Part shown: positions 13,557 through 50,023 of the stretch, in pieces
Numbering within the stretch: position 1 is the first letter of the stretch
How the letters are laid out: each line of letters opens with the position of its first letter
NCBI GenBank assembly: GCA_004764695.1
Contig: SMSO01000031.1
Span: 9,025,761-9,089,760, forward strand
DNA from: Schizochytrium sp. TIO01
Lineage: Eukaryota; Sar; Bigyra; Thraustochytrida; Thraustochytriidae
Length of the DNA: 64,000 bases
Direction: 5' to 3'
Program-made: the position numbers and the translations under genes
The notes under the pieces: model-generated
What the model saw: the letters and a program-made list of their open reading frames with translations, nothing else
What the model was told of the DNA's origin: nothing
Databases searched by the model: none

Positions 13557-14735
13557 TATGGATTGACATTGAATTGAATTGAAGAGTTGGCTGAAAATGA
13601 GAGCGCGAGACCTCGTATTCGATTTCAAGAAGCAAGAGCGCCAGGAAACCGACCCTTGAGGTCGGCTGGCTTTGGGGTATTCCCGCAAGAGCGAGGACCT
13701 GTGGAGGCGTAAGCAAGCAGCGAGTCTGAGCGGTGGATCAAGGAGAGCAGCTGTTTCGAGAAGGCAGACCTGGAGCCACTCGGAAACGGAGATTCGAGTA
13801 TGCTACCAAAGATAAGTGAATGAACGAGTGAATGAGTGAATGAAACTCAAACGAACGATCGACATTACTTTGTTCTCTTTATTACGAGCTTAATCAATTG
13901 AATAATAAAAATAACAAAAAGAGATAACGTGAAATGAAAGCGAAAGCAGGTAGGCACCCCTAGCTCTGTCCTAAGGGATCTATTCCAAGAAAGCAAATCT
14001 ACAGCTGCCTATATACGCGTGCATAAACACCCTTTTTTCTGAGAAAGAAATTAAAATTGTACTTTTTGAATTGAAAAGAAGAATCGCAGAAAGAAAGAAT
14101 CGGGCGGGGTAGAAGTGGCTAGCGCACGTATAGGCCTACGGCACGAGTACTATGGAATTATGAGCACGAAAGGAAAAGTAAGTACGTGGTCCTAAGGAGC
14201 CCTAGGCACCTCGTAGGGCTAGAGGCCCCTAGGCAAGCAGGTAGGTACTCGTAAGTAGTGAGGGCGCGAATGGGATATGATTTGAATTGATCGATTGCCT
14301 AAGTAGAAGAAGCAGAAGAAGGCGCTCTCGAGCGGGTCCGGCAGAGCGCAAGAGAGCGCAGAACGGAGGCCGCGAGGGCAATGGCGCGCGGCAAGCAGCG
14401 GCGCGACGATGCCGGGGTCGAGGAGGATGGCCCGGAGGCAGCGGCGGTTGGCGGCGGCCTCGGGGATGGCAAAGATGCCGTGAGAGAGGACCTCCTGTCT
14501 GGACATGGGCGCCGGCAGGAGCTCGCGAAGACGGCGGGAAAGAAGATGGGTGATGAAGACAAAGGGGAGGAGAATGAGAACGGAAGTGGAAATGGAAGTG
14601 GGAATGGGAAGTGGAATTGACATTGGAGGAGAAACAAAAGAAACCCCATCCTTAGGACAGGAAAGAAGAGATTGCAGAATCGGTGCAGCAGGAAAAGCAA
14701 CTGCGAATTTGGCAAATCTAGGCGCGGAAAGAGCC

Positions 14736-15164
14736 ATGGAAAACGCCAATGCACATGTACAAATGGTGGAAACCAACAACAATGTTGACACAGACAAAAG
14801 CGCTCAAGGAGATAAGGAGATGCAAGATAACCCCTCAGGAGATGCAGAACATGGACGAGTCGAGCCCAACGGTGGCGGCGAAATCATGGATGAAACTGAC
14901 GGGAAAGATGACAACAACGTGGAATATAGTGAAGAAAATGCCGACGGCGAAGAGGATGAAGAAAACGCAGTAGAAGATGAAAATGCTGAAGCAGGCGATA
15001 TAGATGACGAAGATGATGACGACGATGAGGAGGAGGAAGAGGAGGAGGAGGAGGAGGATGACGAAGAAGACGAAGCCAAAGAAGACTCAAACGACGAAGA
15101 TCGCTCCTCGAAAACAAAACAGCTTGGAATCCCAAGAGGCTTGGGATTTCTGGGGATATTATGA
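14736..15164 (+). CDS. Acidic N-terminal segment, probably the start of the giant deubiquitinase
   Basis: This 142-codon frame starts at an ATG in good context (GCCATGG) and encodes an extremely acidic, disordered segment rich in Asp and Glu, including a long Glu/Asp run near 15020-15075. Its TGA overlaps the ATG of the 4067-aa frame by an ATGA arrangement, one frame apart. In a eukaryote with rare introns, two genes so close on one strand are unlikely. The segment is more probably the N terminus of the deubiquitinase, separated by a small indel in GA-rich repeats, an unrecognised intron or a frameshift. No GT donor exists between about 14972 and 15178, which disfavours a simple intron starting there. 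Alternatively it is an upstream ORF. An in-frame ATG also exists at 14505. Confidence 0.5.
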   Translation: MENANAHVQMVETNNNVDTDKSAQGDKEMQDNPSGDAEHGRVEPNGGGEIMDETDGKDDNNVEYSEENADGEEDEENAVEDENAEAGDIDDEDDDDDEEEEEEEEEEDDEEDEAKEDSNDEDRSSKTKQLGIPRGLGFLGIL

Positions 15165-18100
15165 GAGGCAAACCGACAGTTCTGATGCGCAGGGAAGCAA
15201 GCGAAATGTCGATGGTACCAGACGATAACTTCTCGGTAGCAGGTGTCGGCTCAGAGGGAACGCCAACGTCATCAAATGATATTGGACCAGAATATACGCA
15301 GGACTCGCCACGGCCAAATATTTTCGATGAATTCGCTATGGGCGTTGACATTAGCCAAAGAGGTTCGATGGTATCTGGCCCACACCTGGAACCCAGACAT
15401 AACCACCCCTTGGTGGCTGCACTTTGTCTAGCTCAAATTGATGTTGAAACCTTTGAGAAGATTGATGCGGAGCTTGGTGTCCTGAGGGACTGTCCAGAAG
15501 ATTTATATAGAGAGGAAGTATTTACACCTGCAGCAAGTCTGGTGCGTGGAAGCATTGAAGCTCTTCTAATGCGGAGAAAAGGCGTTGATGCTACGGTTCT
15601 GAAACATGCGAGTGTTCTCTTCGGGAGCTGTATTGACATGTATGCTGAAGGGCATACACTTCCTCCAAATGACTTACATGCAGCGATTAATTTCTTTTTC
15701 TCAAGCGGCCCCCAAGCTTATATCTTCAAAGGGGAAAGCAGTACTGCATCGATTGACTCCTTGCAGCTGCGAAAATTTCTCTCCAGATCTAAGTTTTGTG
15801 TTCAAGATGAAGCCAGCTTATTCCGCATTGCCCGAGAGTATTCTCCAGCAAATGATTATAGCTGTACTACTGTACCTTTGGAATTTATGCGCTGCATCGA
15901 AATGTTCTGTAACCAAGGGTGCCTAAAAACCATCGTCGATCATGTCGAGGGCACTCTGCAAAAGCCACGTCCTTCTCCTCACCATGTACTCCATTACGTT
16001 CAGCTCACCACCCACATTGTTGAATTCCTACGGGTTGACGTTGTAAAGCCTATTGTTGAAAACCTTGCCACGGCGCTCTCTTCTTATCTTGAGAGCCTTT
16101 CCAATGCAGATCTGCGCCATTTGGATCACAATGTGCTCTGTGAAATTTTCGCCAAGGTCGACTGTGTTCTTCGCAAGACAAATGCATTTCCTGTCCAGGA
16201 GATGCGGAGATGCGGCGAGTCCCTTCGCCTTGCAGTGGCACTTAAGCAGCTTCGTAGTCCGTTCATGCAGCAACGTTTGGCTGGCCTGCGCCAAATTCGA
16301 ACAATAGTTGAAGAAGCTGAACAGAGAGCTGCTACTGAAGCACTATTACGTAGATCACCCTCTGATTCTCGAGGTGGTGTGGTGCGCAAACGCTCCATCG
16401 ATGAGATTGATCATGCCTCAGAAGGTTTACGCAAGCGTCAAAACTTTGGTCAACTTCAGCTCCGCACATCAGAAGGAGGGAGAGGCGACTTCAACAATTC
16501 AAATGATACACCTTTGCGTGTACATACTGTTGGGCAGATTGGCGGGCAGGGAAATGCACCGAATACAAATTTTGACGAGAAGCTTTATCAATCTACGCTT
16601 AAAACTCTATTAAATAGCCACTCCCATGATTTCCATGGCAAAGATGACAATCCTAATCAACTTGAGCGAGCAGCTGAACTCTTAGGTCTTGCATCTTTCG
16701 TGAAGTTGCACTATGCTGATGTACTAGCAAAAGCCACTTCAGCAGAGGATGATTCAACTTTGGGGGAGATCAAGGGGCCTCAGACAGACACAGTCGACAA
16801 TAACTCGAAAGAGGTACCAGAAAAAAGTGGAAGAGGAGACAGTGCTCTTGTTGATGATGAGGAGGAATCGGATGAGCTGGACAGACGTCAATCTAAACTG
16901 CCACGGCGCGCAAGTGATACTGTAGCTGCCAAGGCTGATGCGGATTTTTCAAAGGCGAGAGATCAGCTAGATAAAGACAATGAGGCCATGGAAGTTGAGT
17001 CTGGAGACAGGTCTGGAGTACTCGGGGATCAGCAAGATTCCGAGCATAATGCCGACAATGCAGTTGCAGACAAAACTCCAGATGCTTTGTTGTCAGCTAA
17101 TGGTGCTGATGATGGGAAAATGGAAGAAGCTGAAGGACACAGTCAAGACTCACCAGTTTTGCCTTCTGAAGTCCTTTCATTCCTAAAGCTTTCAGAACCG
17201 TTGTCCCGTAAAGCTGCTTCTTCCGTTTTGGAACTCATCAAAAGTCGAGATAAAAGTTTATTATCAGAGAATACTAGTCAACAAACAAGTACTGATGATA
17301 GTAACAAGGACTCTGACGTTAAAAATCGTGACAGAAACAATGGTATACCCAGTACAGTCAAAAATGATGCAAGTATGGTTGCAAAGTTTGCGGAATATAT
17401 GCTTCAGGAGCACCGAAACCATCAACGTCCTTCAGATTCACCATATTTTAACGATGGTAGCGTAGTAGATGAAGAAGTATTGCAAGCACCCTCAGAATCT
17501 TCTGAGTCTAAATGTGTCGATCTCAAGAACACGTTGGGCTCTGATGAGAACAAAGTTGTTCAACGTAAAGCTTCGGTGTTCTCTCATGAATCTGCGCGGT
17601 CTGTTCTTGCCATGATTTTCGGCGAAGAAATGGATCAAGTGGCAGGGGATGGCGAAGGGGGGGGAGGAGTACGAGGAGAAGAAGAACAGGAAGAACAGGA
17701 AGAAAAAGATGACACGAAAGACATAGCCACAGAGGCCTTAACGCAGTGGTTTAAGGAAAATCATGTGGTGGAGGTCATTTTCGGCCCTGACTTCATTCAT
17801 ACGGAGGTACTTAAACGCTGCTCTGAAATCTGTCGTTTCCTTGCTGGACATAATCTATTTTCAGAGGAAGACCTTGATCTTGTCTGGGACACCGCTTTCG
17901 GCACAAATGCGCACGAAAGTATCCGTGAAACACTTTGTAGCATAATTTCTGACTTGGCGCGCTACCTACCTCTGAACAAACTCAACTATTTGTGGACCAA
18001 GATCAAGAACATTGACCTCGCCTCTCATGACATCAAGAGCCTGTCCTTTGTACGTAACTTTACAGTAAATGCTGTGCTGTCTCTTCGATGGCAAGAAGAC

Positions 18101-21100
18101 TCTGCTGACCTGGCTAAGGATGCCCCGCAGCAGCACTGGTACGGTCTTGGACTCTTTTGGGACCTTGTGCAAGACTCCACTATAATTTCTTCTGCTTGCC
18201 ATAAAGCGGCTCTTCAGCATCTTACTCATCTCTGTGCCTGGCAACCGTGCTTTGTTGCGCGAGGTGATTTCCTTCGTGCATGTATAAAGAACCTGGAACT
18301 AGCTCAATCCGTCCCGCAGAGTTTGAAGCTCATGCGCGCCATTATTACCTCCTTCCCACTTGATGGGACCCCAACACCTGGTGTGACAGAAAATGTGCCC
18401 TTATCTGCTACTCCCATGTCACGTCAAGATATCGTGTGTTGGCAACCTTGGCTAGTAAAGATTTGTCTGGAAAATCTCAAGCAGTACAAACTCAATTGCA
18501 CAAAGGTACTAGAGACCAGGCCAGAGTTATACTCTGCACTACTTACAAAGTCTCTTGTACAGAACGTAACAAGTCCTGTGACCAGTCCAACGATTGTTGA
18601 TTCTACAACATCTGCTGCAACATCTTCATCTTGTTCTTCAATTATAGGAGACTCCGGTCATGGCCCCGTCTCTAAAGCTATCCCTGGACAAACACAAGAC
18701 AGCGTGGAATTCCATGATGAAGATATGCACGAAGACAAATACGAATGCGATCTCTACGATGAAGAGGCGGAGGACCTCGGGCAGCTGGAGAATGCCGGTG
18801 TAGACCTATCTCCGTCAGACGATGGATCTCTCCAAGGAACTACTGTAAAGGACCCCAAAGTAGCAGGCAACCCTTTGGACTCGTACAAATTGATCGGCAA
18901 GTACTCTCACCTTCGTGGTCTCCGTATCCAATTGAATTTTCTCCGATTCCTTGTCATATCTTGTGGGAAGGAGACCGAAGATTTCCAGCTCACCGCAGAT
19001 CAAGCAGATATAATCCTTGAGAACCTAGCATGTAAAGCTCTTACACACAATGAGCGTAGCTTAGCACTCTCGTGGGTCATGCAGATGCATTTTGTTGCAA
19101 ACGCGTTTGGCCCTGATACCGCCCGAACAGCTCTTCCATTCACCTTTCGGAAATTATCCTTGTCTTCACTACAAAGCCGGGATTTCAGTTTCTTTGAGTA
19201 TTTTTTTCGTGTGGTCAATGTTGATCTTGGCCGTCTGACGTACACCCACGGTGGCAAACCTCGCCCCTTCAACTTTACACAAGCAACCCCACGCGCCTTC
19301 ACAGGAGAAAAGAATTGGCTTCACAATAAGTCCGCCAAAGAGCTTCGTAGATGCTTATCTGGACCTGAAAGCACCCACGAAGCTGCTAACTGTTTTCAGG
19401 TTGTAAATGCTCATCTCGTTGGGCTAGGCATGCTTTGGTGCATGGCATTGCGTGCAAATTGTAGTGCTGTAGCGAAACGTGCTGCCAAAATGTTGTGCAC
19501 TCTTTTCTCCTCTGTTTCTCCATCAACTAATGCGGAGTTTCAGCTAGACCAGCTCACCAACGTGGATGAACGAGAGCTCATTGCCCAAGGCTGGGAAATG
19601 GAGACTTCCAATGTGCCATTGCGTCAGCAAGCATTCGAAGGAAGTACTGGAATGCTAGTAGGAGGTTTTCTGCGTGAGGCAGTTGCCCAGCTGAAACAAG
19701 CTCTGGCAGACCAAAATCCTACCGGGTCTCGGACACGGGTCCGCTGCTTGATGCTTCTCAAAGACCTCCAAGCTTCCTGTGCGTCTTCAAGCCTTATGAG
19801 CAAATCGCATGGTGCACGGGTGGATCGAGTCAATCGTGCACAGGGTATCCTTAGTGGGGAAACTGTTGAACTTCGCATAAAGGAGGTGAACAAGTCTAAT
19901 ATGGAATTGCCTCTGCAAATTGCAAAGGTTGTTTCTGTGGCAGAATTACGATCATCTATAGCTACTCTTTTACAAAAAGATGCGAAAATGCTTCGCTTTA
20001 TCTCCAGTGGTAAGGAAATTAAAGCCCAAGATACTGCTGAATTACGACCTATTTCTCTTGAAGCCGGTCAAGTTATCCATGTAGTCGTACGCCAAGCCAC
20101 ACGGGCCACAGGGGGGGCTGGGAGGGGGGCTGCTTCACCAATGTCAACTCTCAGTTCATTTCCTCACTCGAATAATGAATGGAGGTTTAAACAACTTGAC
20201 GGTTTTCACTTTTCCGATGACATGAACAACAATGAGTTGGAGGAGCTTGAAACAGGGACGGCGGAAACTCATTTTAAAAAAAACGAGATCTCTTCAAACA
20301 AGTCCGATACCTCCAATACGAGTGCTGTGGACCAGTATCATGACGCCGATTCCGTGGACGAGTCTGCCGATGCAAAGGCTCGAAATATATCACCAGCTTC
20401 AGACAATAGCGCATCAAGGGATGACATGGAGGTGAGCGGTAGTAACAGGAACAGGCGTACTTCTGACGATAAAATGGATGTTAATCATGCACAGAACATC
20501 ATTTCAACGAATAACAATGCACTAAGTCAAAAAAGTACTCCTGTTGAAGTTGGTGGTAAATCTATTGACCATGGCGGGCATTCAGACCAACTAAAGTGTA
20601 TAGACGCGAAAAGCGTTCAAAACTCAAAACTGGTGAGACCCGATGCTATTCTACAACAGCCGGAACATGTCAAATTATTGACAGATTTGCTTTTTGATCA
20701 AAAGCCAACAGAAGTTGTTGCTGCCCAAACATGGGACCTGATCCAAGATTTACCAACCCGGGAAGATCTTTTTAAATCTATTCAGGACAATTCTGCGTCG
20801 TGGGATAGTTTGCTGGATCTTAAACCTATTCACAAGACCTTGTACTCATTGCAGATTATGGACTTTATGCTGTGTTGTGAAGACAACAACTTCATCGCAG
20901 CGCCGCATGACCATATCACTCCAGGCATGTCCAGATCATGGGCTCGCAAGGCCATTAGTCTTGGAGCTGTTCAGATGTTGATCAAAGTCCTTTGTACTGT
21001 TGATGATAATGATTCTCCGCTTCACACTCATACGCTTGGAATGCATTGCGTCTTAGAGTTAATTTGTGTGCTACAGAAGCTCTTGCAGCACTGCAGCCAT

Positions 21101-24100
21101 GATGAGCTCATCGAAACTTTGGAAATCCAAGGTCCCAAACTTAATGAGGCTTTGCTGGAGGCCGTTCGGGGTATTGCCACCAATGCTCCAAGTAGCGCAA
21201 TAACCTCTACATCTGCAAATTCTTCTAGTGGAAAAGGCAAGACAGCTATACCAAAATCTACTATATACTCCTCAAATAAGGAGGTCTCGGAGTCTTCCAT
21301 TTCACATGACGTTGTCCTTCGTGCCCTAGGCCTGCGTTTGTGGATCTGCGAGGCAGCTAAGGCACCTTATTTCGGGTGCCCTGCCACACAGGTGCAGCAT
21401 GGGCATGGGGAAGACGCATTCAGTAAGGAGTGGCTTACTACGTGCCTCTTCAACTGCTCGAACGAGAATGTGAAAGATGATGTAACAAAGAGTCTTTTGA
21501 AGTATCCACGAGATGGCCAAGGGCTCTTGAAAAGCCTGTCGGAGATCCTTTCAGAGGTAGAAAATCCTGAAAATCACCATCGCACCACGGAGTACTTTAC
21601 TTTACTGGCTGATCTTGCTCGGAGTGCTCTTGTTGCAGATTCGGATGCTGGTGAGTCTAGACTCTCTGATAATATGGACACTCAAACCATCCCTGAATGG
21701 GCTGAAGCTCTATTCGCCAAATTATTTGCAATCCTTCGCCAACATAAATCAACAGAGAAGCGATCTCGCCCCAGAGATGCCCCGGATCAAACTTTATGCG
21801 GTCTTCTGTTCACCCTTGAAGCACTACTTTCGAACAGTTCCATTTGCGATACCTTTGAGCAACAACAAGAGTTTGTCCGGACAGTGTTTGATGAATGTCT
21901 TTTTGACATTGAGATGGGTGACGCTGATCTCAAGCCGAAGTGTAAAAACCGCACTAGTCGCTCGTATGCGTTTCAAGTTCTTCTTGCTGCAGCAAAGAGC
22001 TCACGTGCTTGCCTTAAAGATCTCCTTCTTCTTATCGAAGCGCAACACAAACAAACCGATCTATGCGCACTAACAACCCAAAATTCGATAGACCATTGTG
22101 GCTTTCCTTCAAGTGTTCGATGGGCCATCACTGACGAAGGTGATGATCGTACTATTCGCGATCGCGAACATCAATGGCAGTATGACCCCGCGTCTCAACG
22201 CAAGGCTGACGTTGGTTATGTAGGGCTCCGAAACCTTGGCTGCATTTGTTATATGAATTCTTTGCTCCAGCAACTGTACATGATCCCAGAGCTTCGACTC
22301 GAGATTTTTCGCAGTAGTGAAACAAAGAAGCGTACTCGTGCAGCTCGCGACACAGAAAGTGCACAAATGAAAGCTAACTTGAGTGCTCTTAATAGTGAAG
22401 GAAGGTCTCTCGAGTCTGATGAGGATGAAGTGAAGTTGCGTCAGCACAAAGCACTGCTTCATCAAACTCGCCGCATGTTCACATGGCTACAGGAAAGTGA
22501 AAAGCGAGCCTACGATATGACTTGCTTCTGCAATAAGTCAATTTCATTGAATCATGGCAACCCAATTGACATTTTCGAACAACAGGACGTTGATGAGTTT
22601 TTTAACGTTCTTATGGATCAACTCGAACACGCTCTAAAGGACAGTAAACGCCCAGATATCTTACGAGACCTTTTTGGAGGAGTACTTTGCAATCAGATCC
22701 TCTGTAAAGAAGGTTGTTCGCATCGCTCAGAACGCGAGGAAAAATTTATGGTGTGTCAATTGGAGGTAAAGGGTAAACAGAGTATAAAAGAAAGCCTTGA
22801 CCTTTATGTGGAGGGTGAGATGCTTGAAGGTGATAATAAGTATCTGTGCGGGGAATGTAATGAAAAGAGAGACGCTCAAAAGCGAGCGTTTTTTGTTTCT
22901 CTACCGAATGTGCTCATGATTCATTTGAAACGGTTTGACTTTGACCTTGAACTTTTACGGAAAATTAAAGTAAATGACCATTGCGAGTTCCCGTCTGAGC
23001 TTAATATGAAGCAGTATACTCGGGAGGCCCTCGAAGAACGCGAAGAAAATATGAAGCCCGACGCATACTACGAATATGAATTGGTTGGAATCCTCGTGCA
23101 CACTGGAACTGCTGATAGTGGCCACTACTACTCATACATCAAGGAGCGTTTTCCCAAATGCGGACGTAAGTCCTGCGAATGGTTTCACTTTAACGATGAA
23201 CAAGTATCTCACTTTGATCCTGCAACTATCCCTGAAGCTACATTTGGTGGGATGCCAACTGGATCACGATGGGACTCGCAGCAGCGAAACGGCTCACAGT
23301 CTTGGTCTGCAAAACCTTATAGTGCCTACATGCTGATTTATGAACGCAAGGAGCGCCCGTGCCTGCCAGGGCTTCCAAGGGGACTAGCCAAAGCTGAGGA
23401 CGTCCTCCCTGTACTGCATAACGCCGTTCCAAAATTGCTACAACAAACCTGCTGGCAGCAGAACGTAGAGTTCATGCGCGATGAAATGGTTCTTGACGCT
23501 GCGTACGGGGACTTTGTTCTTAGCGCAAGCAAAATTGTAACCGAAGGATCGCCACCTTCTGTTGCCAACAATTTGTCGTCGAGTTGGTTCGAGGCATTGC
23601 AGGCGTGCTCGGCATTTGCAATCAATACATTAGTCCATGCTCGAAACAAGGAGCACCTTGATTCAATTATGACCCAAATTAAGACACTTATTCGAATTGG
23701 AGGCCCTCCTGCTCGTCGATCAATGCTGGAAAACCTCGAGGCTAACGGTGCGACTGCAGTTCGCCAACTGTTGTTGCGCTGTCCAATTCCTCAGGTGCGG
23801 GACACTTTCCTCAATCTCCTCAATGATCTCCTGCGAATAGATATTAAAGGCGATCGCATTCTTTACAACAGCGTTGCGACAAACCTCATCGAATTTTGGA
23901 ATGTCCCTTTCAAGCCTTATGCTGAACGTCAAATATATGATAAACGCAAGACGGATGTAGAGAATTATGGACGTGCATGGTTGGGAACCCTGGACCAAGT
24001 GCAGACTCCAATCGTCGAGGAGTTAGGAGAAATTCTCTGGGAAGATTGTCTCAGCGTTCCGTGTGTACCGCCCCTGGAGACACCATCACTTCGATTGATT

Positions 24101-27100
24101 GGTTGGATGATTGCGCATACAACAGACGCTCACCAGTCGTGGCGCAATGTAGACAGCTTATTTGCTGTGATGTCCTCATTTGCTGATCTTGGCAGACCAG
24201 AGCGAGTTGAGATGGTGCGAATGGGAGCTATTCCGCGTATTTTAGATTTTTTGTTAGATCAAGATTCTCCGAGCCTCCGTGTTCTTCACATGGACAAATC
24301 GCGCGAACTTGAATGTCGTCGCGGTATGGGCGAAAAATATGAACCTCCTACTCTCCTACATGCTGTGAGGACTCTAGCCTCCCTAGTACGCACATGTGAT
24401 ATTCCACTCGGCGCGCGAAACAAGAATATTGCCATTTATTATGGCGCATCTGTGTTTGATAGCGTTGATGATGAGTCAAGTAACAGTGCTGGCGACGATG
24501 AAGAAGGCAATGGCGACAGCATGGATGTAGCAAAGAAAATCTCACTTATGGCAAAATCACCGGTTCAACTTACGTGGCTTGATGTAGCTCTTATGATTCA
24601 AACTCCTCTTCTGCCAAGGCTTTTGGAGAACCATAATTCCTTCTGGATTTCCGACTTACAAGATCTCTTGCTCCATTTGGGCACCGGGAGCTCTTCACTC
24701 AGCTGGTTCATTGCAAATGTCATACGTAGTCAGCTCTTTACAGCCCCAGTCATAGCTGTGTCAACGCTGTTTCGCACCAGCGAAACCCTTTTGAGTGCTC
24801 CATACAACAAGCGTCTAGTTAAAAAGTACGTGGCGACAATGATTGATACGATACTCGCTGCAAGCGAAGTGGAGAGCGATGGAGTCGCAGCTGCCTTAGC
24901 TCATTTGTGCCGCCTTTTGAATGGAGAAAGTGGCTTCTCTGTGGCTCAAATCTTATACGAGCTGATTTCTGAATGGCTGATTGCCCTTCTTGTAGATCAT
25001 GACTCTGAGATTGTACGCAGGCAGGCTGCGGTCCTTGTGATCTCAATGGTTTCTGCTTTTGAAGCCAAGAACTTTCAAGCAGTATCTGACAAACAGAAGT
25101 CAACCGATTCTGAAGACGGGCAAGCACACACTGTTGAGAGCATCAATGAAGATCGTGTTATGGCTGACAACATGGAAGGCGACACAGGCGCCGAGGCAGT
25201 CACAGCAAGGTCAACCGACGATGATGCTGGCAAGGACCCAGTTATCGAGGAAGGCCATGAGATGCTAGGCACTGTACAGCTACTTCTGTCTATATTAACT
25301 CTCAGTTTCATGGATAAGATCTGCTCAAGCAATTCCTACGAGATGATTGTTATGAAGTGTCGATCCTTGCCTTCTATTCCTCAAAAACCTGCCATTCGGC
25401 GATGGGAAGGCCCACGCACCCAGCCTGTAAACTTCAATGATATCGAGGGCGAAGGTATTGCGGTTCTACCCGGAGAGAGCCGCGCAGATGCTTTAACTCG
25501 TTATGCTCTAAAGCTCAAAGATGCTCCTCAGGAACCTAGTCCCTTTACACTTGTATCAGCGCTGCGTACACTGCTAATCCTTCTAAAGCTTTGCACCAAA
25601 GAAACATACGAAAGTTTACTTGGTATTTCAGAGATGGAAGTTATTGTGACTTCTATTCTCAAAGTCGATGCATATAAGTTGGAGTGTGACTGGAATAAGG
25701 GAGAGCTGATTTCATTTCTCTACGAGATGACGCGAGACAACGAAGAAAGGATGGTTTCATGCACAAGTAATCCTGATGTCTTGAAGCGTCTGTTGAACAT
25801 TTCGATGGCTGTGAGGCCTTCAGAAGGTCATTACATCTTCAATGAAACATATGCTCCGGTATATTATCGTTTCTTTTGTGCTTGGGTAAAGTGCTCTTAC
25901 ACGAAAGCCCCCTTCGATGCTTTGGATAACTTACATCACCTCAAATGGGCAATCAAGTATTACTTACTCGATATTAACGAGTACATTTGCACTGTGGCTC
26001 CTCTACGTCTTCTCATGCGCATTACGGTACCCGCATTACAGAAGAATAGCCTTGCACTGATTGACGACCTTCAAAGCTCCTTACTTGTGTGTCAACAAGA
26101 CGCTATCCACAAAGTGGGTTTGGATAACTTGTTGCTTTCTATCCGTTGTCTATCGGGCGTTAAAGATTTGTATGCACCAGGGGAATCTGGACAAAGTATC
26201 GTTCTCGGCGCATACATGTCTTCAGACTTATCACCCGTTGATACGGAGAAGAATTCTACTTTGATTGCTGAGAAGCTTATTGTCAAAGGCAGCCTTGTCA
26301 GTGCTTTACTCACAAATGTGTTAGGTTATTTGCGAAAGGTTCCTGAGAGTCAGTATGAAGATAAGGAAGATAGGTACAGTCACTTGGAATACGGACTCAA
26401 GGTGCTTGGTGCAATGTGGGGAAGGCTTGGTAGAACTCGTGATTTAGTCATCATGCAAGCAAGCGCTAAAGAAGCACCCAATGTAGATGATTCTACTACA
26501 GATCAGGCAAGCAATCTAAACCTGTCTCGTCTTACACTGTCTGCCATTGCAAAGAGTCTCAACGAGAACCCTGACAGTGTAATTAAGTCTAGCCCGGCTG
26601 GGGAAGCAGCACATGCCTTCGCTTCAATTGCCGCAGGAGTAACTGGTGTCACTGCAGCTGGTAAGGCTGCAGACCCGCACAGTGATGTTGACAAGGATGA
26701 TGTTGCAGAGCTAGCTGACGATGAGAAGGAGGCCGAACTGTTGCAAGGATGCCAGGAGCTGCAGCGCGCTGCAGCTGCGGCTTGGATTCAGTACGTCCTT
26801 ATGTGCAATGAATATCAGGCTCCTGGGCAAGTCCGTGTCCTGGATGCTATTTCTAGCTGTATCTCAATCACCGTGAGGATTGGTTGGGAGTATGTTCGGG
26901 AGGCATCATGCATGAGCGATTTGGGGCGAGCAGTCGGCTCTCTGATCACTCGCCTGATGGCGCGCTTCAGACAAGACTCTGCCAATGACCAACCGCTAAC
27001 AAAGCCATATTTAGATGCAATCACATTTTCGTGCATGGCCCTGCTACAAGTACATTTCACAACAGGAAGCAAGCACAAGCTAAGCCCGTTTTCTGTTTCA

Positions 27101-27364
27101 GTAATTTCGGTACTTTTACTTGTTGCTCTCGAGCACAGGCACAACCCCAAACAGCATGCTGAAATTGCAAGCTTCCTGAACCAGATTCGTGAGCACACCA
27201 AAGATACTGCTTGGATTCGACTAAACGAGCAAGCAGAATTGTACATCAACATTTTAAGTAGTGAACCTGCTGCAATGCAACTTCTGGAGGAACACGATGA
27301 GGCCTCCAAATCAATCATTACTCATATTCGCGCCTTGTTAACAGACAACTCTGGAGAAATGTAA
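15161..27364 (+). CDS. Giant ubiquitin-specific protease, USP9X/USP24/USP34 type
   Basis: A 4067-aa single-frame deubiquitinase that should remove ubiquitin from protein substrates. The peptidase C19 domain spans about residues 2350-2730. The Cys box GLRNLGCICYMNSLLQQL has the nucleophile at about Cys2363 (the second Cys of the box). The His box contains DSGHYYSY with the base at about His2655, followed by WFHFNDEQVS. A zinc-ribbon pair is visible (CKEGC near 2512, CGEC near 2563). A ubiquitin-like domain lies at about 1567-1645. The N-terminal half contains alpha-solenoid helices typical of this subfamily (RLAVALKQLRSPF near 354, QWFKENHVVEVIFG near 860), separated by acidic disordered spacers. 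A long helical C-terminal part follows the catalytic domain. It is larger than human USP34 (about 3500 aa). The ATG at 15161 is the frame's first, but the true N terminus is probably the acidic segment just upstream. Confidence 0.95.
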   Translation: MRGKPTVLMRREASEMSMVPDDNFSVAGVGSEGTPTSSNDIGPEYTQDSPRPNIFDEFAMGVDISQRGSMVSGPHLEPRHNHPLVAALCLAQIDVETFEKIDAELGVLRDCPEDLYREEVFTPAASLVRGSIEALLMRRKGVDATVLKHASVLFGSCIDMYAEGHTLPPNDLHAAINFFFSSGPQAYIFKGESSTASIDSLQLRKFLSRSKFCVQDEASLFRIAREYSPANDYSCTTVPLEFMRCIEMFCNQGCLKTIVDHVEGTLQKPRPSPHHVLHYVQLTTHIVEFLRVDVVKPIVENLATALSSYLESLSNADLRHLDHNVLCEIFAKVDCVLRKTNAFPVQEMRRCGESLRLAVALKQLRSPFMQQRLAGLRQIRTIVEEAEQRAATEALLRRSPSDSRGGVVRKRSIDEIDHASEGLRKRQNFGQLQLRTSEGGRGDFNNSNDTPLRVHTVGQIGGQGNAPNTNFDEKLYQSTLKTLLNSHSHDFHGKDDNPNQLERAAELLGLASFVKLHYADVLAKATSAEDDSTLGEIKGPQTDTVDNNSKEVPEKSGRGDSALVDDEEESDELDRRQSKLPRRASDTVAAKADADFSKARDQLDKDNEAMEVESGDRSGVLGDQQDSEHNADNAVADKTPDALLSANGADDGKMEEAEGHSQDSPVLPSEVLSFLKLSEPLSRKAASSVLELIKSRDKSLLSENTSQQTSTDDSNKDSDVKNRDRNNGIPSTVKNDASMVAKFAEYMLQEHRNHQRPSDSPYFNDGSVVDEEVLQAPSESSESKCVDLKNTLGSDENKVVQRKASVFSHESARSVLAMIFGEEMDQVAGDGEGGGGVRGEEEQEEQEEKDDTKDIATEALTQWFKENHVVEVIFGPDFIHTEVLKRCSEICRFLAGHNLFSEEDLDLVWDTAFGTNAHESIRETLCSIISDLARYLPLNKLNYLWTKIKNIDLASHDIKSLSFVRNFTVNAVLSLRWQEDSADLAKDAPQQHWYGLGLFWDLVQDSTIISSACHKAALQHLTHLCAWQPCFVARGDFLRACIKNLELAQSVPQSLKLMRAIITSFPLDGTPTPGVTENVPLSATPMSRQDIVCWQPWLVKICLENLKQYKLNCTKVLETRPELYSALLTKSLVQNVTSPVTSPTIVDSTTSAATSSSCSSIIGDSGHGPVSKAIPGQTQDSVEFHDEDMHEDKYECDLYDEEAEDLGQLENAGVDLSPSDDGSLQGTTVKDPKVAGNPLDSYKLIGKYSHLRGLRIQLNFLRFLVISCGKETEDFQLTADQADIILENLACKALTHNERSLALSWVMQMHFVANAFGPDTARTALPFTFRKLSLSSLQSRDFSFFEYFFRVVNVDLGRLTYTHGGKPRPFNFTQATPRAFTGEKNWLHNKSAKELRRCLSGPESTHEAANCFQVVNAHLVGLGMLWCMALRANCSAVAKRAAKMLCTLFSSVSPSTNAEFQLDQLTNVDERELIAQGWEMETSNVPLRQQAFEGSTGMLVGGFLREAVAQLKQALADQNPTGSRTRVRCLMLLKDLQASCASSSLMSKSHGARVDRVNRAQGILSGETVELRIKEVNKSNMELPLQIAKVVSVAELRSSIATLLQKDAKMLRFISSGKEIKAQDTAELRPISLEAGQVIHVVVRQATRATGGAGRGAASPMSTLSSFPHSNNEWRFKQLDGFHFSDDMNNNELEELETGTAETHFKKNEISSNKSDTSNTSAVDQYHDADSVDESADAKARNISPASDNSASRDDMEVSGSNRNRRTSDDKMDVNHAQNIISTNNNALSQKSTPVEVGGKSIDHGGHSDQLKCIDAKSVQNSKLVRPDAILQQPEHVKLLTDLLFDQKPTEVVAAQTWDLIQDLPTREDLFKSIQDNSASWDSLLDLKPIHKTLYSLQIMDFMLCCEDNNFIAAPHDHITPGMSRSWARKAISLGAVQMLIKVLCTVDDNDSPLHTHTLGMHCVLELICVLQKLLQHCSHDELIETLEIQGPKLNEALLEAVRGIATNAPSSAITSTSANSSSGKGKTAIPKSTIYSSNKEVSESSISHDVVLRALGLRLWICEAAKAPYFGCPATQVQHGHGEDAFSKEWLTTCLFNCSNENVKDDVTKSLLKYPRDGQGLLKSLSEILSEVENPENHHRTTEYFTLLADLARSALVADSDAGESRLSDNMDTQTIPEWAEALFAKLFAILRQHKSTEKRSRPRDAPDQTLCGLLFTLEALLSNSSICDTFEQQQEFVRTVFDECLFDIEMGDADLKPKCKNRTSRSYAFQVLLAAAKSSRACLKDLLLLIEAQHKQTDLCALTTQNSIDHCGFPSSVRWAITDEGDDRTIRDREHQWQYDPASQRKADVGYVGLRNLGCICYMNSLLQQLYMIPELRLEIFRSSETKKRTRAARDTESAQMKANLSALNSEGRSLESDEDEVKLRQHKALLHQTRRMFTWLQESEKRAYDMTCFCNKSISLNHGNPIDIFEQQDVDEFFNVLMDQLEHALKDSKRPDILRDLFGGVLCNQILCKEGCSHRSEREEKFMVCQLEVKGKQSIKESLDLYVEGEMLEGDNKYLCGECNEKRDAQKRAFFVSLPNVLMIHLKRFDFDLELLRKIKVNDHCEFPSELNMKQYTREALEEREENMKPDAYYEYELVGILVHTGTADSGHYYSYIKERFPKCGRKSCEWFHFNDEQVSHFDPATIPEATFGGMPTGSRWDSQQRNGSQSWSAKPYSAYMLIYERKERPCLPGLPRGLAKAEDVLPVLHNAVPKLLQQTCWQQNVEFMRDEMVLDAAYGDFVLSASKIVTEGSPPSVANNLSSSWFEALQACSAFAINTLVHARNKEHLDSIMTQIKTLIRIGGPPARRSMLENLEANGATAVRQLLLRCPIPQVRDTFLNLLNDLLRIDIKGDRILYNSVATNLIEFWNVPFKPYAERQIYDKRKTDVENYGRAWLGTLDQVQTPIVEELGEILWEDCLSVPCVPPLETPSLRLIGWMIAHTTDAHQSWRNVDSLFAVMSSFADLGRPERVEMVRMGAIPRILDFLLDQDSPSLRVLHMDKSRELECRRGMGEKYEPPTLLHAVRTLASLVRTCDIPLGARNKNIAIYYGASVFDSVDDESSNSAGDDEEGNGDSMDVAKKISLMAKSPVQLTWLDVALMIQTPLLPRLLENHNSFWISDLQDLLLHLGTGSSSLSWFIANVIRSQLFTAPVIAVSTLFRTSETLLSAPYNKRLVKKYVATMIDTILAASEVESDGVAAALAHLCRLLNGESGFSVAQILYELISEWLIALLVDHDSEIVRRQAAVLVISMVSAFEAKNFQAVSDKQKSTDSEDGQAHTVESINEDRVMADNMEGDTGAEAVTARSTDDDAGKDPVIEEGHEMLGTVQLLLSILTLSFMDKICSSNSYEMIVMKCRSLPSIPQKPAIRRWEGPRTQPVNFNDIEGEGIAVLPGESRADALTRYALKLKDAPQEPSPFTLVSALRTLLILLKLCTKETYESLLGISEMEVIVTSILKVDAYKLECDWNKGELISFLYEMTRDNEERMVSCTSNPDVLKRLLNISMAVRPSEGHYIFNETYAPVYYRFFCAWVKCSYTKAPFDALDNLHHLKWAIKYYLLDINEYICTVAPLRLLMRITVPALQKNSLALIDDLQSSLLVCQQDAIHKVGLDNLLLSIRCLSGVKDLYAPGESGQSIVLGAYMSSDLSPVDTEKNSTLIAEKLIVKGSLVSALLTNVLGYLRKVPESQYEDKEDRYSHLEYGLKVLGAMWGRLGRTRDLVIMQASAKEAPNVDDSTTDQASNLNLSRLTLSAIAKSLNENPDSVIKSSPAGEAAHAFASIAAGVTGVTAAGKAADPHSDVDKDDVAELADDEKEAELLQGCQELQRAAAAAWIQYVLMCNEYQAPGQVRVLDAISSCISITVRIGWEYVREASCMSDLGRAVGSLITRLMARFRQDSANDQPLTKPYLDAITFSCMALLQVHFTTGSKHKLSPFSVSVISVLLLVALEHRHNPKQHAEIASFLNQIREHTKDTAWIRLNEQAELYINILSSEPAAMQLLEEHDEASKSIITHIRALLTDNSGEM

Positions 27365-30488: not shown

Positions 30489-32780
30489 TTAAGTAGAGCT
30501 AGACGAGGAAGTTGAGAATCCCTCTCTCAACGTTTTAAGGCGTCGAAGAATCGGAGTTTGTGCGGGATCTTGAGGGGATGCAGGAAGGTACACCGCTGCA
30601 TATGGTTCAGGTGACCAAAGCTGCAGAGCTTCCAGCGACTGGACATCGCAAAAGAGTTCTCTGTATCTTGGACCACGTTTCATATCAAAAAGTGAAGCAT
30701 CGCGACTTGGAGGCTTTCTAGCGCGTTGCCCAGCGAACGCTACTTTAGAAAACCCCTTGCGCCCATCTATAAAATCAGAAGAAATTAGTGCCTTCTTGGC
30801 AGAAATCACACCTGGAGTAGAGCGTCGAATGTCTTGCCACCATTTCCAAGGCAATAACAAGAGTCCGTCTAACGTTACTAATCTCCACATAAAGCGGCGA
30901 ACAGAAAGAAATCGATGCAGATAAAGAAATACGAGACACGATGCCAAGACTGAGGTTACCAAGCTAGCTGTGCTGATATTCAGACCTCGTGTAGATGAGA
31001 GCATTCCGTGAAAGTTAGTTTCTGCTGCGGCAGACCTTGAGGGAACCCAGATTGCGAGGGTGGCTAGTACGAGACGTAATATTATGCAAGTCTCTGTGAT
31101 TCTTGCACATAGAACACCAATCTGGCTTGTTAGACTTCTCACAGGAAATTGAGAGAGCGAGATTAATGCCTTTTTCTCGGACAAGTATATTATGAAAAGT
31201 TCCGCCCCACCAAGAGGTGCTAACCAGATGACTATACCCGAATATGGAACACAAAGAATGACTGTTCGCAAGGTTGACATATAAGCCTGTGCAAGATCCC
31301 ATGTGGGAGGCAGAAATTTCTTGTTCATCTGTTGCTGCGTTAGTGGGCGGCTTGAAAGCTCACGCCGCAGGTATAGATAGAGGTTTCTTGCAAAAGAAAA
31401 CCACACGACTTGTAGAATCGTGTGCATTGTTTGCGCAATAACAAGGTTGGGAATAACACGATCTGACCACCACGTATAAGAAAAGGGTTTACGCGTATAC
31501 GCTGATACATAAGACCAATAAAATGGCCAAAGCAGGTAGCAAGGCACGTCAATACACAGCGTAGAAGCTAACACTGAATAAAATATTGTGAAACTTCGTA
31601 AAGGGTGTCCATACCAGTCAAAGGCACGACTGAGACCAAATCGGGAACCCTTGTTCCATAAGACGAGTATCGCTGCTCCAGCATAATGACTGCCAAGGTC
31701 ATTTGCTACGTCCCAGACGTAGTAACCAATAACCATATTAAAAATAAGCAGCGTGACTAAAAGCAGCGCACATCGTGCTGGCCACCCTGACTGAGCATAC
31801 CAATGCGGATGTTGGAGTCTGAACCAGTCAATATTTGAGGGGTAGACCTCTTCCACGGTACCAATCGCACGTAAACGTGTTAGTGGCGCACCAAACATAA
31901 GACATAAGTGATGCAAAATCCAGTGACGATTATCATGGTGCATTAGTTCGCGAGCAAGGCTCGCATGGGCAGCACTTTTGAATGTGATAAAGAGAAAATC
32001 AACTTTGTGATGTGCAGTACGAGCAACTGCGCCTAGTTCTTCTTGGAGGAATAGGTCCCTAAAATAAGATTGCTCTATTTTTTTCAGAGCAACTATACTG
32101 GCTTTGAGTCTTTGCTTAGCAAGGCGAAACTCCTTGGTTATCGGGTCTAATGTATTCATTTTCTGCCTTTCAGCCTCGCCAACTTCAACAAGCATGATAC
32201 GCTCTTCTGCAGCACGCGCGAAGCTTAGGTTTTCAGAGCTGTAGTTCAAAAGGCCAGTAATACATACGTCAATGATTGGTGGGGTTACCTCCCGAGCAAA
32301 ACGCGTTCTTTCTCCATAACTATCCTTAAGATGGCTTCTCTTCCGGTTTCTTGAGAGCTGGAGTTGCTTGAAGAAAGTTTGCAATTCCTTTTTCTTAACA
32401 GCATCCGTGCGATGTGGCGCTTGAATCACCAGTAAGGATCGGGATGCAATGTTCAGTTCTTGTGCTTCAAAAGTCCCAGTTTCCTTCTGACGCTGGCTAA
32501 CGGTGACGCGACCCATGTAACATGCTATTATCGCGGTAAGCAGAGCTGAGCTTGCGTTGATGATTAGAAATGGCTCAAACAAAAGCTGGCAGTCATCTCG
32601 AATACATGTGGAAACACTCCACCTTCGAGCTTCTATTACATAGGCCTGTGCGATGGATGCAGAGTTCTCTGAGGAGAATTGGCGAACTGACGTAAAAAAT
32701 GTGAGTACGAGAGGTACACTAAAAAGTGAGAAAATGAACATGATCACATAAATGTACCTTGTTTGGCGGAAAAAAACCCA
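30489..32780 (-). CDS. OSCA/TMEM63-like multipass membrane protein, probable C-terminal part of a RING fusion gene
   Basis: The frame is open from 32780 (no stop) to a stop at 30489; its first ATG is at 32741. It encodes two N-terminal hydrophobic helices (32735-32690 and about 32570-32510), a cytosolic domain of about 220 aa containing RSLLVIQAP and FLFITFKSAAHASLA, then many transmembrane segments. The layout matches the OSCA/TMEM63/CSC1 family: an RRM-like loop with a FxTFKS-type strand, a P-x-N-I-D-W segment just before the next helix, and a later FLPPTWDLAQAYMSTLR...PYSG segment. Members are osmo- or mechanosensitive cation channels. The frame overlaps the upstream RING frame on the same strand, offset by one base at a T7 run (32770-32776), so both are probably one gene. 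Resemblance to the related TMC or anoctamin families cannot be excluded. Confidence 0.7.
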   Translation of the reverse strand, partial: WVFFRQTRYIYVIMFIFSLFSVPLVLTFFTSVRQFSSENSASIAQAYVIEARRWSVSTCIRDDCQLLFEPFLIINASSALLTAIIACYMGRVTVSQRQKETGTFEAQELNIASRSLLVIQAPHRTDAVKKKELQTFFKQLQLSRNRKRSHLKDSYGERTRFAREVTPPIIDVCITGLLNYSSENLSFARAAEERIMLVEVGEAERQKMNTLDPITKEFRLAKQRLKASIVALKKIEQSYFRDLFLQEELGAVARTAHHKVDFLFITFKSAAHASLARELMHHDNRHWILHHLCLMFGAPLTRLRAIGTVEEVYPSNIDWFRLQHPHWYAQSGWPARCALLLVTLLIFNMVIGYYVWDVANDLGSHYAGAAILVLWNKGSRFGLSRAFDWYGHPLRSFTIFYSVLASTLCIDVPCYLLWPFYWSYVSAYTRKPFSYTWWSDRVIPNLVIAQTMHTILQVVWFSFARNLYLYLRRELSSRPLTQQQMNKKFLPPTWDLAQAYMSTLRTVILCVPYSGIVIWLAPLGGAELFIIYLSEKKALISLSQFPVRSLTSQIGVLCARITETCIILRLVLATLAIWVPSRSAAAETNFHGMLSSTRGLNISTASLVTSVLASCLVFLYLHRFLSVRRFMWRLVTLDGLLLLPWKWWQDIRRSTPGVISAKKALISSDFIDGRKGFSKVAFAGQRARKPPSRDASLFDMKRGPRYRELFCDVQSLEALQLWSPEPYAAVYLPASPQDPAQTPILRRLKTLREGFSTSSSSST

Positions 32781-33582
32781 TTACACCAATTCCAAAACAT
32801 TCTTGAAGATCAGTCTCACTCACTTCGAGAATACCTAAATTAAGCTCTGAGTTTCGTGGACGCTCCAATCCCAGAACCTTTTCGATGTGGGTGCCTGCAA
32901 GAAGTGCGTCCGCATACATCTTTGCAGCACCAACATCAACAATGTGCTTTTTCTGAGCTAGTGCAATCTCCTCTTCCTCCACTTCCTCCTCCTTTGTTCG
33001 ATAATCATCGACTGCTTGCATACAAACAGGACAAAGAATTTTTCCTTGAGTTCTCTCGTTCCTTAGTTCTAGATAACATGGTTCACAGATGCATCGATGA
33101 CGGCATGGGATCAATCTCAAAAGTCCATTTTCAGTATCATTCAAACAAATTTGGCACAATCTTTCATCAGATGCTTCATTGTGATCAGGATCTTCTGCTG
33201 GATTTCCTAAACCCACATCGTAATCGTCCTCTTCGTCTCCTGTACTGGCGCTTATATTGTCGTCGTCGTCGTCACCATCATCGTCATCATCGTCATCATC
33301 GTCCACGTCGTCACCGTCGTCACCGTCGTCTTGTCCATCGTCGTCCTCTTCATCGTCGACGTATTTTACATCTTCATCTTCATTATTGCCTTGGCTGTCT
33401 TTTACCCTGATTTTGGAATGATGGCTGGTTTTCTTCTTACCCAGAAGCTCTTCCAAGGCACCGGTTGTAATCCCATCCCTATGAGAAACTTTTTTCGATA
33501 GACCATCAAAGCTCAGCTCATTATTCCTTCGACGTGTTCTTCTCTTTGAAGACTGTGCTGGTGAGCGCGCCCAGAAAGGCAT
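32719..33582 (-). CDS. RING-HC finger protein with acidic region, probable N-terminal part of the fusion gene
   Basis: This 287-aa frame from the ATG at 33582 has a basic N terminus, a very long Asp/Glu run (about residues 68-110) and a C3HC4 RING finger. The zinc ligands are Cys143, Cys146, Cys160, His162, Cys166, Cys169, Cys184 and Cys187. The PCRHRCICEPC core resembles the MGRN1 and MAPL type of RING-HC E3 ligases, so E2 binding and ubiquitin transfer are inferred. A coiled Glu-rich segment follows (about 196-212). The last residues after GVMG are probably not real: skipping one T of the T7 run at 32770-32776 continues the frame into FFRQTRYIYVIMFIF, the first membrane helix of the downstream frame. 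If so, the true product is a RING ligase anchored to a channel-like membrane domain. Confidence 0.8.
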   Translation of the reverse strand: MPFWARSPAQSSKRRTRRRNNELSFDGLSKKVSHRDGITTGALEELLGKKKTSHHSKIRVKDSQGNNEDEDVKYVDDEEDDDGQDDGDDGDDVDDDDDDDDDGDDDDDNISASTGDEEDDYDVGLGNPAEDPDHNEASDERLCQICLNDTENGLLRLIPCRHRCICEPCYLELRNERTQGKILCPVCMQAVDDYRTKEEEVEEEEIALAQKKHIVDVGAAKMYADALLAGTHIEKVLGLERPRNSELNLGILEVSETDLQECFGIGVMGFFPPNKVHLCDHVHFLTF

Positions 33583-47927: not shown

Positions 47928-48470
47928 TCACTCATTGTCCCCTGCAAAGAGGATCTTTCCTTCATCATCGTGGTGACCTGTCTCCACACTCTCTTGTAGG
48001 CGCCCGATCCAGTTCCATTCTACTCTTTCATGCGGAAAGGATTGGATTTGCTTTAGTTCCTGCCTGAGAACGTAGTACTTCATCATGGCGACCACGGTGG
48101 GGTTTGATCTTTCCGCAGCTATCTCCACAGATGCTTTGTACGCGCGTTCACCAAACCACGATCGATGCAGGCAGCTAGCATTGGCAAGGCCACGATAAAA
48201 GAACACCTTGACGAGCAAAGCCGCGAGGAAGGCGCCCGCAATACATCTCTCGGCTGACAGCGAGCGGCCTCCTCCCATTCCTCCCATGCCTCCTCCCATG
48301 GCCTTCTCATCAAGTCTGGACTGGCCAACTGTTAACTTCCAAAGGTTGGTTAACTTCTGCGAGTTCAGGTCAGGTTCTTCGCCGAGCCAAGTTTGCTCTT
48401 GCGCTTTTCCCTGAGATGAACGCGCTGCTGCATCTTCCTCCAAGCCAGCCCAGAGCCCCAACTTTTGCAT
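47928..48470 (-). CDS. Doubtful hypothetical protein with one membrane segment
   Basis: The family is not recognised. From the minus-strand ATG at 48470 the product is 180 aa, with a Gly/Met-rich stretch, one plausible membrane helix (CIAGAFLAALLVKVFFYRGL, about residues 76-95) and a helical charged C-terminal part with VAMMKYYVLRQELKQIQSF. The C-terminal half looks protein-like, but the gene lies beside a GC-rich region where chance frames are common, and no homologue can be named. It may also be an exon of a spliced gene. Confidence 0.35.
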   Translation of the reverse strand: MQKLGLWAGLEEDAAARSSQGKAQEQTWLGEEPDLNSQKLTNLWKLTVGQSRLDEKAMGGGMGGMGGGRSLSAERCIAGAFLAALLVKVFFYRGLANASCLHRSWFGERAYKASVEIAAERSNPTVVAMMKYYVLRQELKQIQSFPHERVEWNWIGRLQESVETGHHDDEGKILFAGDNE

Positions 48471-48675
48471 CTGCTGCCGCCCTCCTTCTCCTCCTCCATC
48501 TCAGGTATCTCTCTCTCTCCCTTCGTCATCCTCCCACCCTACGCCCCAAACGAGAGCGGCACCCGAGGGTTGGAACTCCCAAGTGCACATCGATCTCAAG
48601 CTCGCAGCCGCCAACTGCCGGCGCTGCAGTCGAGCCTTCGCTTCCTTCGCTGGCGCCGCGGCGTGTACTTGGCCT

Positions 48676-48712
48676 CAGGCCAGGCAGGCAGGCAGGCAGC
48701 CAGGCAGCCAGG
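48676..48712. repeat. (CAGG)n microsatellite
   Basis: Imperfect CAGG/CAGC units in a GC-rich interval. Confidence 0.8.
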
Positions 48713-50023
48713 CTCCTCGCCGCAGTGCATGCATGCATCCACCAGTGCCAGAGCCTCCAAGCCCACGCAGGCAGCTCGACTTGACGCACCAACTCCGAAC
48801 CAGCCCGCGTCGAGGTTGGCGCAGGGTGCTGCTTTCCAAGCAAAGGGTGTGCGCCGAGCTGGCATAGGCGCCTGCCTACCTGGGCAGTAGGCAAGCCACA
48901 CACCAACAACCAGGAGAGCGAGGAGCAGCGTGGTCTCCGAGCAGATTCCGCATCCCGCCAAACCCGATACTGCGCCCAGGTCCAAGGGCTGGCGCGCCTT
49001 CAAGCACACGCGAGCCCGGGTTCCGCCAGGCTTGTCCTTCCCGTCCTCCTGCGCGTCTGCCGACGCCCACCCCCGCGATCCTCGAGGTCGCAGACCTCGC
49101 TCAGCGGGCAGAAGCAGGTACCCACAAAGGTCTTGTCCAGGCCTGACATAATACCAGCACCGGTGTCATAAAACGTGTATAAATACGCGTTTCCTACCTT
49201 ACCAGACACCGCGTGCGCCGCCTCGGGCCCCTAGCGGGCGGCTAGGCGAAACGCCACGAGGGCTTTTCCCTGCGTCCGGGCCCGGCCAACCGATTTGTAG
49301 CCGCCAGGCTCTCAGAGGGGACCGCACTCCTCGCCAAGTCGCAGCGAGAGGGCCCTTCTCCTCAGGCCCCGGCGGCTTCTGCGTTCTGCGGCGCGCTTGC
49401 TTTCTTTCCCCGGCTCGAGCGGACGAAGGAAGCTTAGGTCTGTCTGTCTGCCTGTCTGCGGCAGCCTCCTGGCAGAGAACAGGGCGGCGGCGGCGGAGAG
49501 AACGGAACGCAGAGAACGAGGCCGAGCGCACCGCCCGTAAGGGACCCGGAGAGAGGGAGGGTGGGCGAACCCAGGGAGTACACCGGGTCGCGTAACCGAG
49601 GGACACGGCGCCCTCTGGCTCAAGCTCAGGTAGTGGTGCAGATAGGCGAAAGGGTAGGAGGTGTTCCAAGAGGGTGTTCTTTTCGATTCCTGAGTCGGCG
49701 AGTGTGTTTTGAAATTGGAGGAAGAAGAAAGAAAGCTCAAATTCAATCCGAATTTGAAAAATTCGAAGTCTGCGACATTGATTCATTCCCACATCGTCGA
49801 TCGATCGGCTGGGCTGGAGGCGCGGCTGGGGTGCGGCGAGGCGGTCGGTGCACAGGCAGGACGCACTGGCTGGAAGGCAGCGCGGGGGAGGCGGAGAAGC
49901 CCGAGCGCGAGTTCCTCTCTTTGGATTCGTTTCCTTCAATTTCTTTCCATCATCATCGTCACCAATTTCCTCCGTCTGATTCCTTTCCTTCTCTCAGCTC
50001 TGTTTCCTTTGGCTTCCGTCTGT

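Follow-up and report, generated by a model that had tools for sequence, protein, structure and literature searches.

A probable RING finger and divergent OSCA-like membrane protein gene of Schizochytrium sp. TIO01, broken by one base at a run of seven T

Two overlapping frames on the minus strand of a 64,000-nucleotide stretch of the Schizochytrium sp. TIO01 genome (the window) are best explained, and with good confidence, as one gene of about 1,030 codons that joins a RING finger to a divergent OSCA-like membrane domain and is broken by a single base at a run of seven T (T7). The assignment to one gene is carried by a switch of coding signal from one frame to the other and by a conserved motif that is divided between the two frames at the T7 run.

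Results

The window and its two overlapping frames

The source genome comprises 64,063,054 bases in 37 contigs, and the window corresponds to positions 9025761–9089760 of its contig. The window is eukaryotic, as judged from its gene content, which includes, according to Pfam, a USP9X/UBP24-like ubiquitin hydrolase of 4,067 codons and an eIF3h subunit. The hydrolase is a single open frame (15161–27364, plus strand) with a ubiquitin-like match at residues 1582–1645 that lies below the cut-off. An acidic frame of 219 amino acids (14505–15164, plus strand) overlaps its start in a different frame, over approximately 100 open bases (15061–15164), and this may reflect another break of frame, an intron or two separate genes. 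The stretch 48001–50000 has a GC content of 60.7%, compared with 37.6–50.9% in other 2-kb stretches, and contains overlapping open frames on both strands.

A sequence-only reading had proposed two overlapping same-strand frames and a T7 run within their overlap. The frames are present on the minus strand at 33582–32719 and, counted from the first ATG, at 32741–30489, and the run is located at 32776–32770. The main features are as follows.

32719..33582, minus strand: RING frame, 287 codons, ATG to TAG
33259..33384, minus strand: acidic stretch rich in Asp and Glu ahead of the RING; limits approximate, taken from the translation
33022..33156, minus strand: C3HC4-type RING finger (Pfam zf-C3HC4_3, eight of eight Cys/His ligands)
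30489..32780, minus strand: membrane frame, open for 763 codons
32770..32776, minus strand: T7 run, the likeliest place of a net one-base frame break

The two frames share 62 bases, stop codon included. The membrane frame encodes 750 amino acids from its ATG at 32741, and the joined reading of about 1,030 codons contains no further stop. No second copy of the gene was found in the genome.

A complete C3HC4 RING finger

The RING finger announced by the sequence-only reading is well supported. The RING frame matches PF13920 (zf-C3HC4_3) with an E-value of 1.6e-8, above the Pfam cut-off, and all the ligands of the C3HC4 pattern are found between 33156 and 33022, so that the finger is complete. 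Both the spacing of the zinc ligands and the Pfam cut-off place it among RING E3 ligases of the C3HC4 type. A search of the genome with zf-C3HC4_3 returned 49 places, the RING of the window being one of them. A basic linchpin residue is expected after the last Cys pair of RING E3s; the translation has Met-Gln at this point instead. The product of the RING frame may act as an E3, binding an E2 and transferring ubiquitin.

Matches of the RING to PDB sequences were to RNF13, CGRRF1, MGRN1 and RNF38 proteins (six sequences, E-values from 4.5e-4 to 0.0082), and the likeness lies in the RING sequence. To our knowledge, none of these proteins carries an OSCA-type membrane domain.

The coding signal and a conserved motif pass from one frame to the other

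Codon usage was scored in segments of 75 bases with a model trained on 72,054 bases from 25 long, non-redundant frames that excluded the gene itself; the training frames were picked for being long and open, and antisense frames may be among them. In the eight segments starting between 33042 and 32832, scores range from +4.2 to +9.1 in the RING frame, as against −14.3 to −1.2 in the membrane frame. By contrast, the membrane frame is the higher in all 11 segments starting between 32772 and 32472 (−0.5 to +4.4 versus −12.6 to −0.3). The score of the RING frame is above zero from 33042 to about 32757, and its tail past the T7 run drops to −9.0 and −8.0 (segments starting at 32772 and 32742). Four segments over the RING itself score from −4.0 to −0.5 in the RING frame, values that are still above those of the membrane frame. 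When the changepoint was computed over single-skip positions, the 20 best positions, spanning 32721–32781, held 98.2% of the posterior, and 49% of it fell within 32755–32790; codon usage alone, therefore, does not fix the break to the T7 run. With a larger training set (32 frames, 87,291 bases, including overlapping paralogue copies), the share near the T7 run was 56%.

A sequence motif also bears on the place of the break. L034, L035 and L036, three OSCA/CSC1-like paralogues encoded on other contigs of this genome, have in common, immediately ahead of and within their first transmembrane helix (TM1), the motif GxG(V/I)xx(Y/F)Fxxx(K/R), followed by a Pro 15 residues on. Its two halves are found in the two frames.

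32770..32796, minus strand: FGIGVMGFF, the left half of the motif that precedes TM1, encoded in the RING frame
32694..32768, minus strand: right half of the motif (RQTR and onwards, through TM1), in the membrane frame, in directly continuing register

The left half has its best site in the RING frame at FGIGVMGFF, with none of the 36,294 peptides of the window as good, and the best site of the right half in the membrane frame starts with the residue immediately after it, where 13 of 36,294 are as good; no peptide of the 36,294 equals both halves together. The motif block was picked after the likeness had been seen by eye, so these counts do not have the meaning of a blind test. The motif is thus split at the T7 run, which supports the proposal of the sequence-only reading that the break lies at or near this run. 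Scored by HMM search, the joined reading comes out slightly below the membrane frame on its own (18.8 versus 19.5 bits), which speaks against the one-gene reading; the motif part was aligned in the right order, with 2.9 bits (E 11), a value that is not significant by itself.

Taken as a whole, the coding switch, the motif that continues across the break and the failure of any of 90 frame-keeping GT-AG introns to save both motif halves uphold the one-gene reading. Both frames are real and, very probably, together form one gene.

Cause of the break and alternative gene structures

The break most probably reflects either an assembly error in the homopolymer or a recent mutation. An assembly error within the T7 run is the simplest cause and is favored here on general grounds. 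Eleven A/T runs of at least seven bases occur without a shift in the 25 long open frames (13 in the larger training set), which indicates, for frames that were selected for openness, that such runs are often correct in this assembly.

A second cause under the one-gene reading is a recently broken allele of the fused gene, that is, an early pseudogene, which we regard as possible and on balance unlikely. The break is single and no second genome copy was found; as no other stop interrupts the approximately 1,030 codons, the gene, if dead, must have died recently. A broken allele and an assembly error nevertheless fit the present sequence equally well.

Recoding, also a form of the one-gene reading, appears improbable. 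On this reading, a one-base slip of the ribosome or the RNA polymerase at the T7 run would affect some of the products, and the cell would make a short soluble RING protein as well as the full membrane ligase. A frameshifted chloroplast gene has been reported to be recoded at a homopolymer run (PMC8254509), and here the seven U followed by C would allow a tRNA decoding UUU to re-pair on UUC. About a dozen bases downstream is a 9-bp hairpin (z −2.6), the best among three folded stretches and equalled in stability by 3 of 200 shuffles, and the long reading free of further stops also agrees with recoding. However, the CCG codon after the run makes up 16% of 1,181 Pro codons and is not a rare one, the tail of the RING frame past the run is strongly negative in codon score, and the A/T runs of the 25 open frames carry no shift. 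No homologue in which the site might be conserved was found in viral_contigs, searched with the membrane frame and with the three-paralogue profile, or in genome_contigs, searched with the membrane frame alone.

A soluble RING protein and a separate membrane protein starting at the ATG at 32741 could also be the products of two genes or of a single message carrying two open frames, an arrangement that we consider quite improbable. Each frame has its own ATG, the overlap is short, and TM1 would retain 19 of its 21 residues with a start at 32741. Natural splitting of a polytopic membrane ligase has been reported (PMC3464245), and a simple gene-finding HMM, too crude to be relied on, preferred this structure, placing no shift at the T7 run and beginning a second gene at 32516. 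Against it, a start at 32741 loses the GxGhxx(F/Y)F motif, which lies in the RING frame, together with the charges before TM1, and in codon usage the RING frame keeps a positive score as far as the T7 run. Elsewhere, the same crude HMM put one-base shifts at 14582 of the window (plus strand), at 6495 of L030 and at 4712 of L033 (minus strand).

An unseen intron that restores the frame is highly improbable and was rejected: donor- and acceptor-like sites flank 39 bases at 32757–32719, but removal of this stretch leaves the frame unchanged and does not join the frames, and among the 90 frame-keeping, stop-free GT-AG introns of 25–400 bases, 12 keep the left motif half only, 78 keep neither and none keeps both. 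The ends of the 39-base stretch (32719–32757, minus strand), which lies in the doubly open region, belong to a 9-bp inverted repeat.

A distant relationship of the membrane part to OSCA/TMEM63

The single gene preferred here owes its membrane part to a frame that the sequence-only reading had called OSCA/TMEM63-like. The frame has no Pfam match up to an E-value of 10, RSN1_7TM, PHM7_cyt and RSN1_TM included, and does not match a profile built from four canonical OSCA paralogues in this genome (hhalign 0.2%). No convincing PDB relative was found by sequence, the best match having an E-value of 0.17.

The relationship becomes apparent through the L034–L036 subfamily. These paralogues are themselves OSCA-like, since PHM7_cyt matches all three (above the cut-off in two by hmmscan and in three in the genome search) and, searched as a profile, they reach CSC1 structures (E 2.9e-5) and the canonical OSCA profile (96.8%). 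Pairwise hhalign between the membrane frame and the subfamily gives 60% with an E-value of 8.5e-5, and blastp to L036 within a set of 11 proteins gives 1e-4. With the L034–L036 profile, the membrane frame scores 19.5 bits, whereas none of 500 controls, comprising 499 shuffled sequences and one reversed sequence, exceeded 3.3 bits. The match is clearest in one transmembrane block.

31152..31313, minus strand: transmembrane block of 54 residues matching the same block of L034–L036 (0 of 1000 shuffles as good)

Tests of three further blocks gave weak results, with 51, 201 and 444 of 1000 shuffles as good; the blocks are in the expected order, the last one (444 of 1000) being only the second-best site. 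In a genome search with L036, the membrane frame was the only place outside the three paralogues among the matches listed, as the last of seven, with an E-value of 0.067.

The name OSCA/TMEM63-like thus holds for the membrane frame in the sense of a distant link through three divergent paralogues (E 8.5e-5, and the block at 0 of 1000), and it finds no backing from Pfam or from the canonical profile. With moderate confidence, and on sequence grounds, the membrane part is predicted to be a very divergent OSCA-like protein that lacks TM0.

The L034–L036 subfamily is divergent, has no RSN1_TM match and carries GxG(V/I)xx(Y/F)F ahead of TM1. An additional match of L034, to the Anoctamin family, lies below the cut-off (E 6.5e-4). 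A further locus, L037 (C34:3044000-3049500), is very divergent and OSCA-like, its only Pfam match being to PHM7_cyt, below the cut-off (E 6.6e-5, hmmscan). PT-rich repeats are present in two paralogues, L030 and L032.

Transmembrane organization

A simple hydropathy scan finds nine hydrophobic helices in the membrane frame: two, followed by a long loop, and then seven, of which one is weak. The first two are the following.

32685..32747, minus strand: TM1 (hydropathy, 21 residues), net charge +2 on its N-terminal side
32511..32573, minus strand: TM2 (hydropathy), net charge +2 on its C-terminal (loop) side

The positive charges on the RING side of TM1 and on the loop side of TM2 indicate that the RING and the loop share one side of the membrane, which, by the positive-inside rule, would be the cytosol. 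Hydropathy and charges thus bear out the earlier proposal of two helices before a long loop, with the RING facing the same side as the loop. The same reading had placed a good hydrophobic helix upstream of the first ATG, and this was overstated: the frame is indeed open from 32780, but TM1 starts at 32747, two residues ahead of the ATG at 32741, and only a charged and aromatic lead-in, RQTRYIY, lies upstream. No hydrophobic helix that could serve as TM0 was detected in the RING frame by the hydropathy scan. A single-sequence structure model of the membrane frame reached a pLDDT of 35.8, which is too poor for fold matches to be meaningful; an OSCA chain is absent among the 50 fold matches listed, a result that is uninformative at this model quality.

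Discussion

The organization of the predicted protein recalls two known systems. With OSCA/TMEM63 (CSC1) proteins it shares two helices, a long loop on the side of the RING and a transmembrane bundle, as well as one transmembrane block by way of L034–L036. It differs from them in having neither a Pfam match, nor a match to the canonical profile, nor TM0, and in carrying a RING at its N-terminus; canonical OSCA1.2 is described as having TM0–TM10 (PMC12346119). With Doa10/MARCH6 it shares an N-terminal RING followed by many transmembrane helices, a likeness of layout. Doa10 has an N-terminal RING-CH followed by 14 helices (PMC10802466), whereas the present protein has a C3HC4 finger of the zf-C3HC4_3 type and nine helices by hydropathy, so that neither the RING type nor the helix number fits the Doa10/MARCH6 family.

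The sequence-only reading knew of no RING ligase built onto an osmosensitive-channel-type domain. A search of the literature for a RING or ubiquitin ligase together with OSCA, TMEM63, CSC1 or DUF221 showed no such fusion among the papers listed. The word RING is absent from the main text of a survey of diatom OSCA proteins (PMC11085791).

The gene as joined at the T7 run would encode an acidic stretch and a C3HC4 RING in the cytosol, followed by a polytopic OSCA/TMEM63 (CSC1) relative without TM0. Such a layout would be that of a membrane-embedded polytopic E3 with a cytosolic RING, as in Doa10. The RING would recruit an E2 and ubiquitinate proteins in or near the membrane, and the OSCA-type part may hold substrates or sense the lipid or tension state of the membrane. 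That membrane tension or lipid state directly controls the tethered RING E3, with slippage at the T7 run setting the ratio of free to membrane-bound forms, is a highly speculative extension to which we give very little credence.

The case illustrates that a divergent OSCA-like protein missed by Pfam can be recovered through its paralogues, and that one homopolymer break can hide a fusion of this kind from annotation. TMEM63B has been reported as a mechanosensitive scramblase (PMC13332465). If the fusion is real, the fold of a tension-gated channel or lipid scramblase and ubiquitin ligation would be combined in one chain, which would provide a testable, direct link from membrane state to protein turnover.
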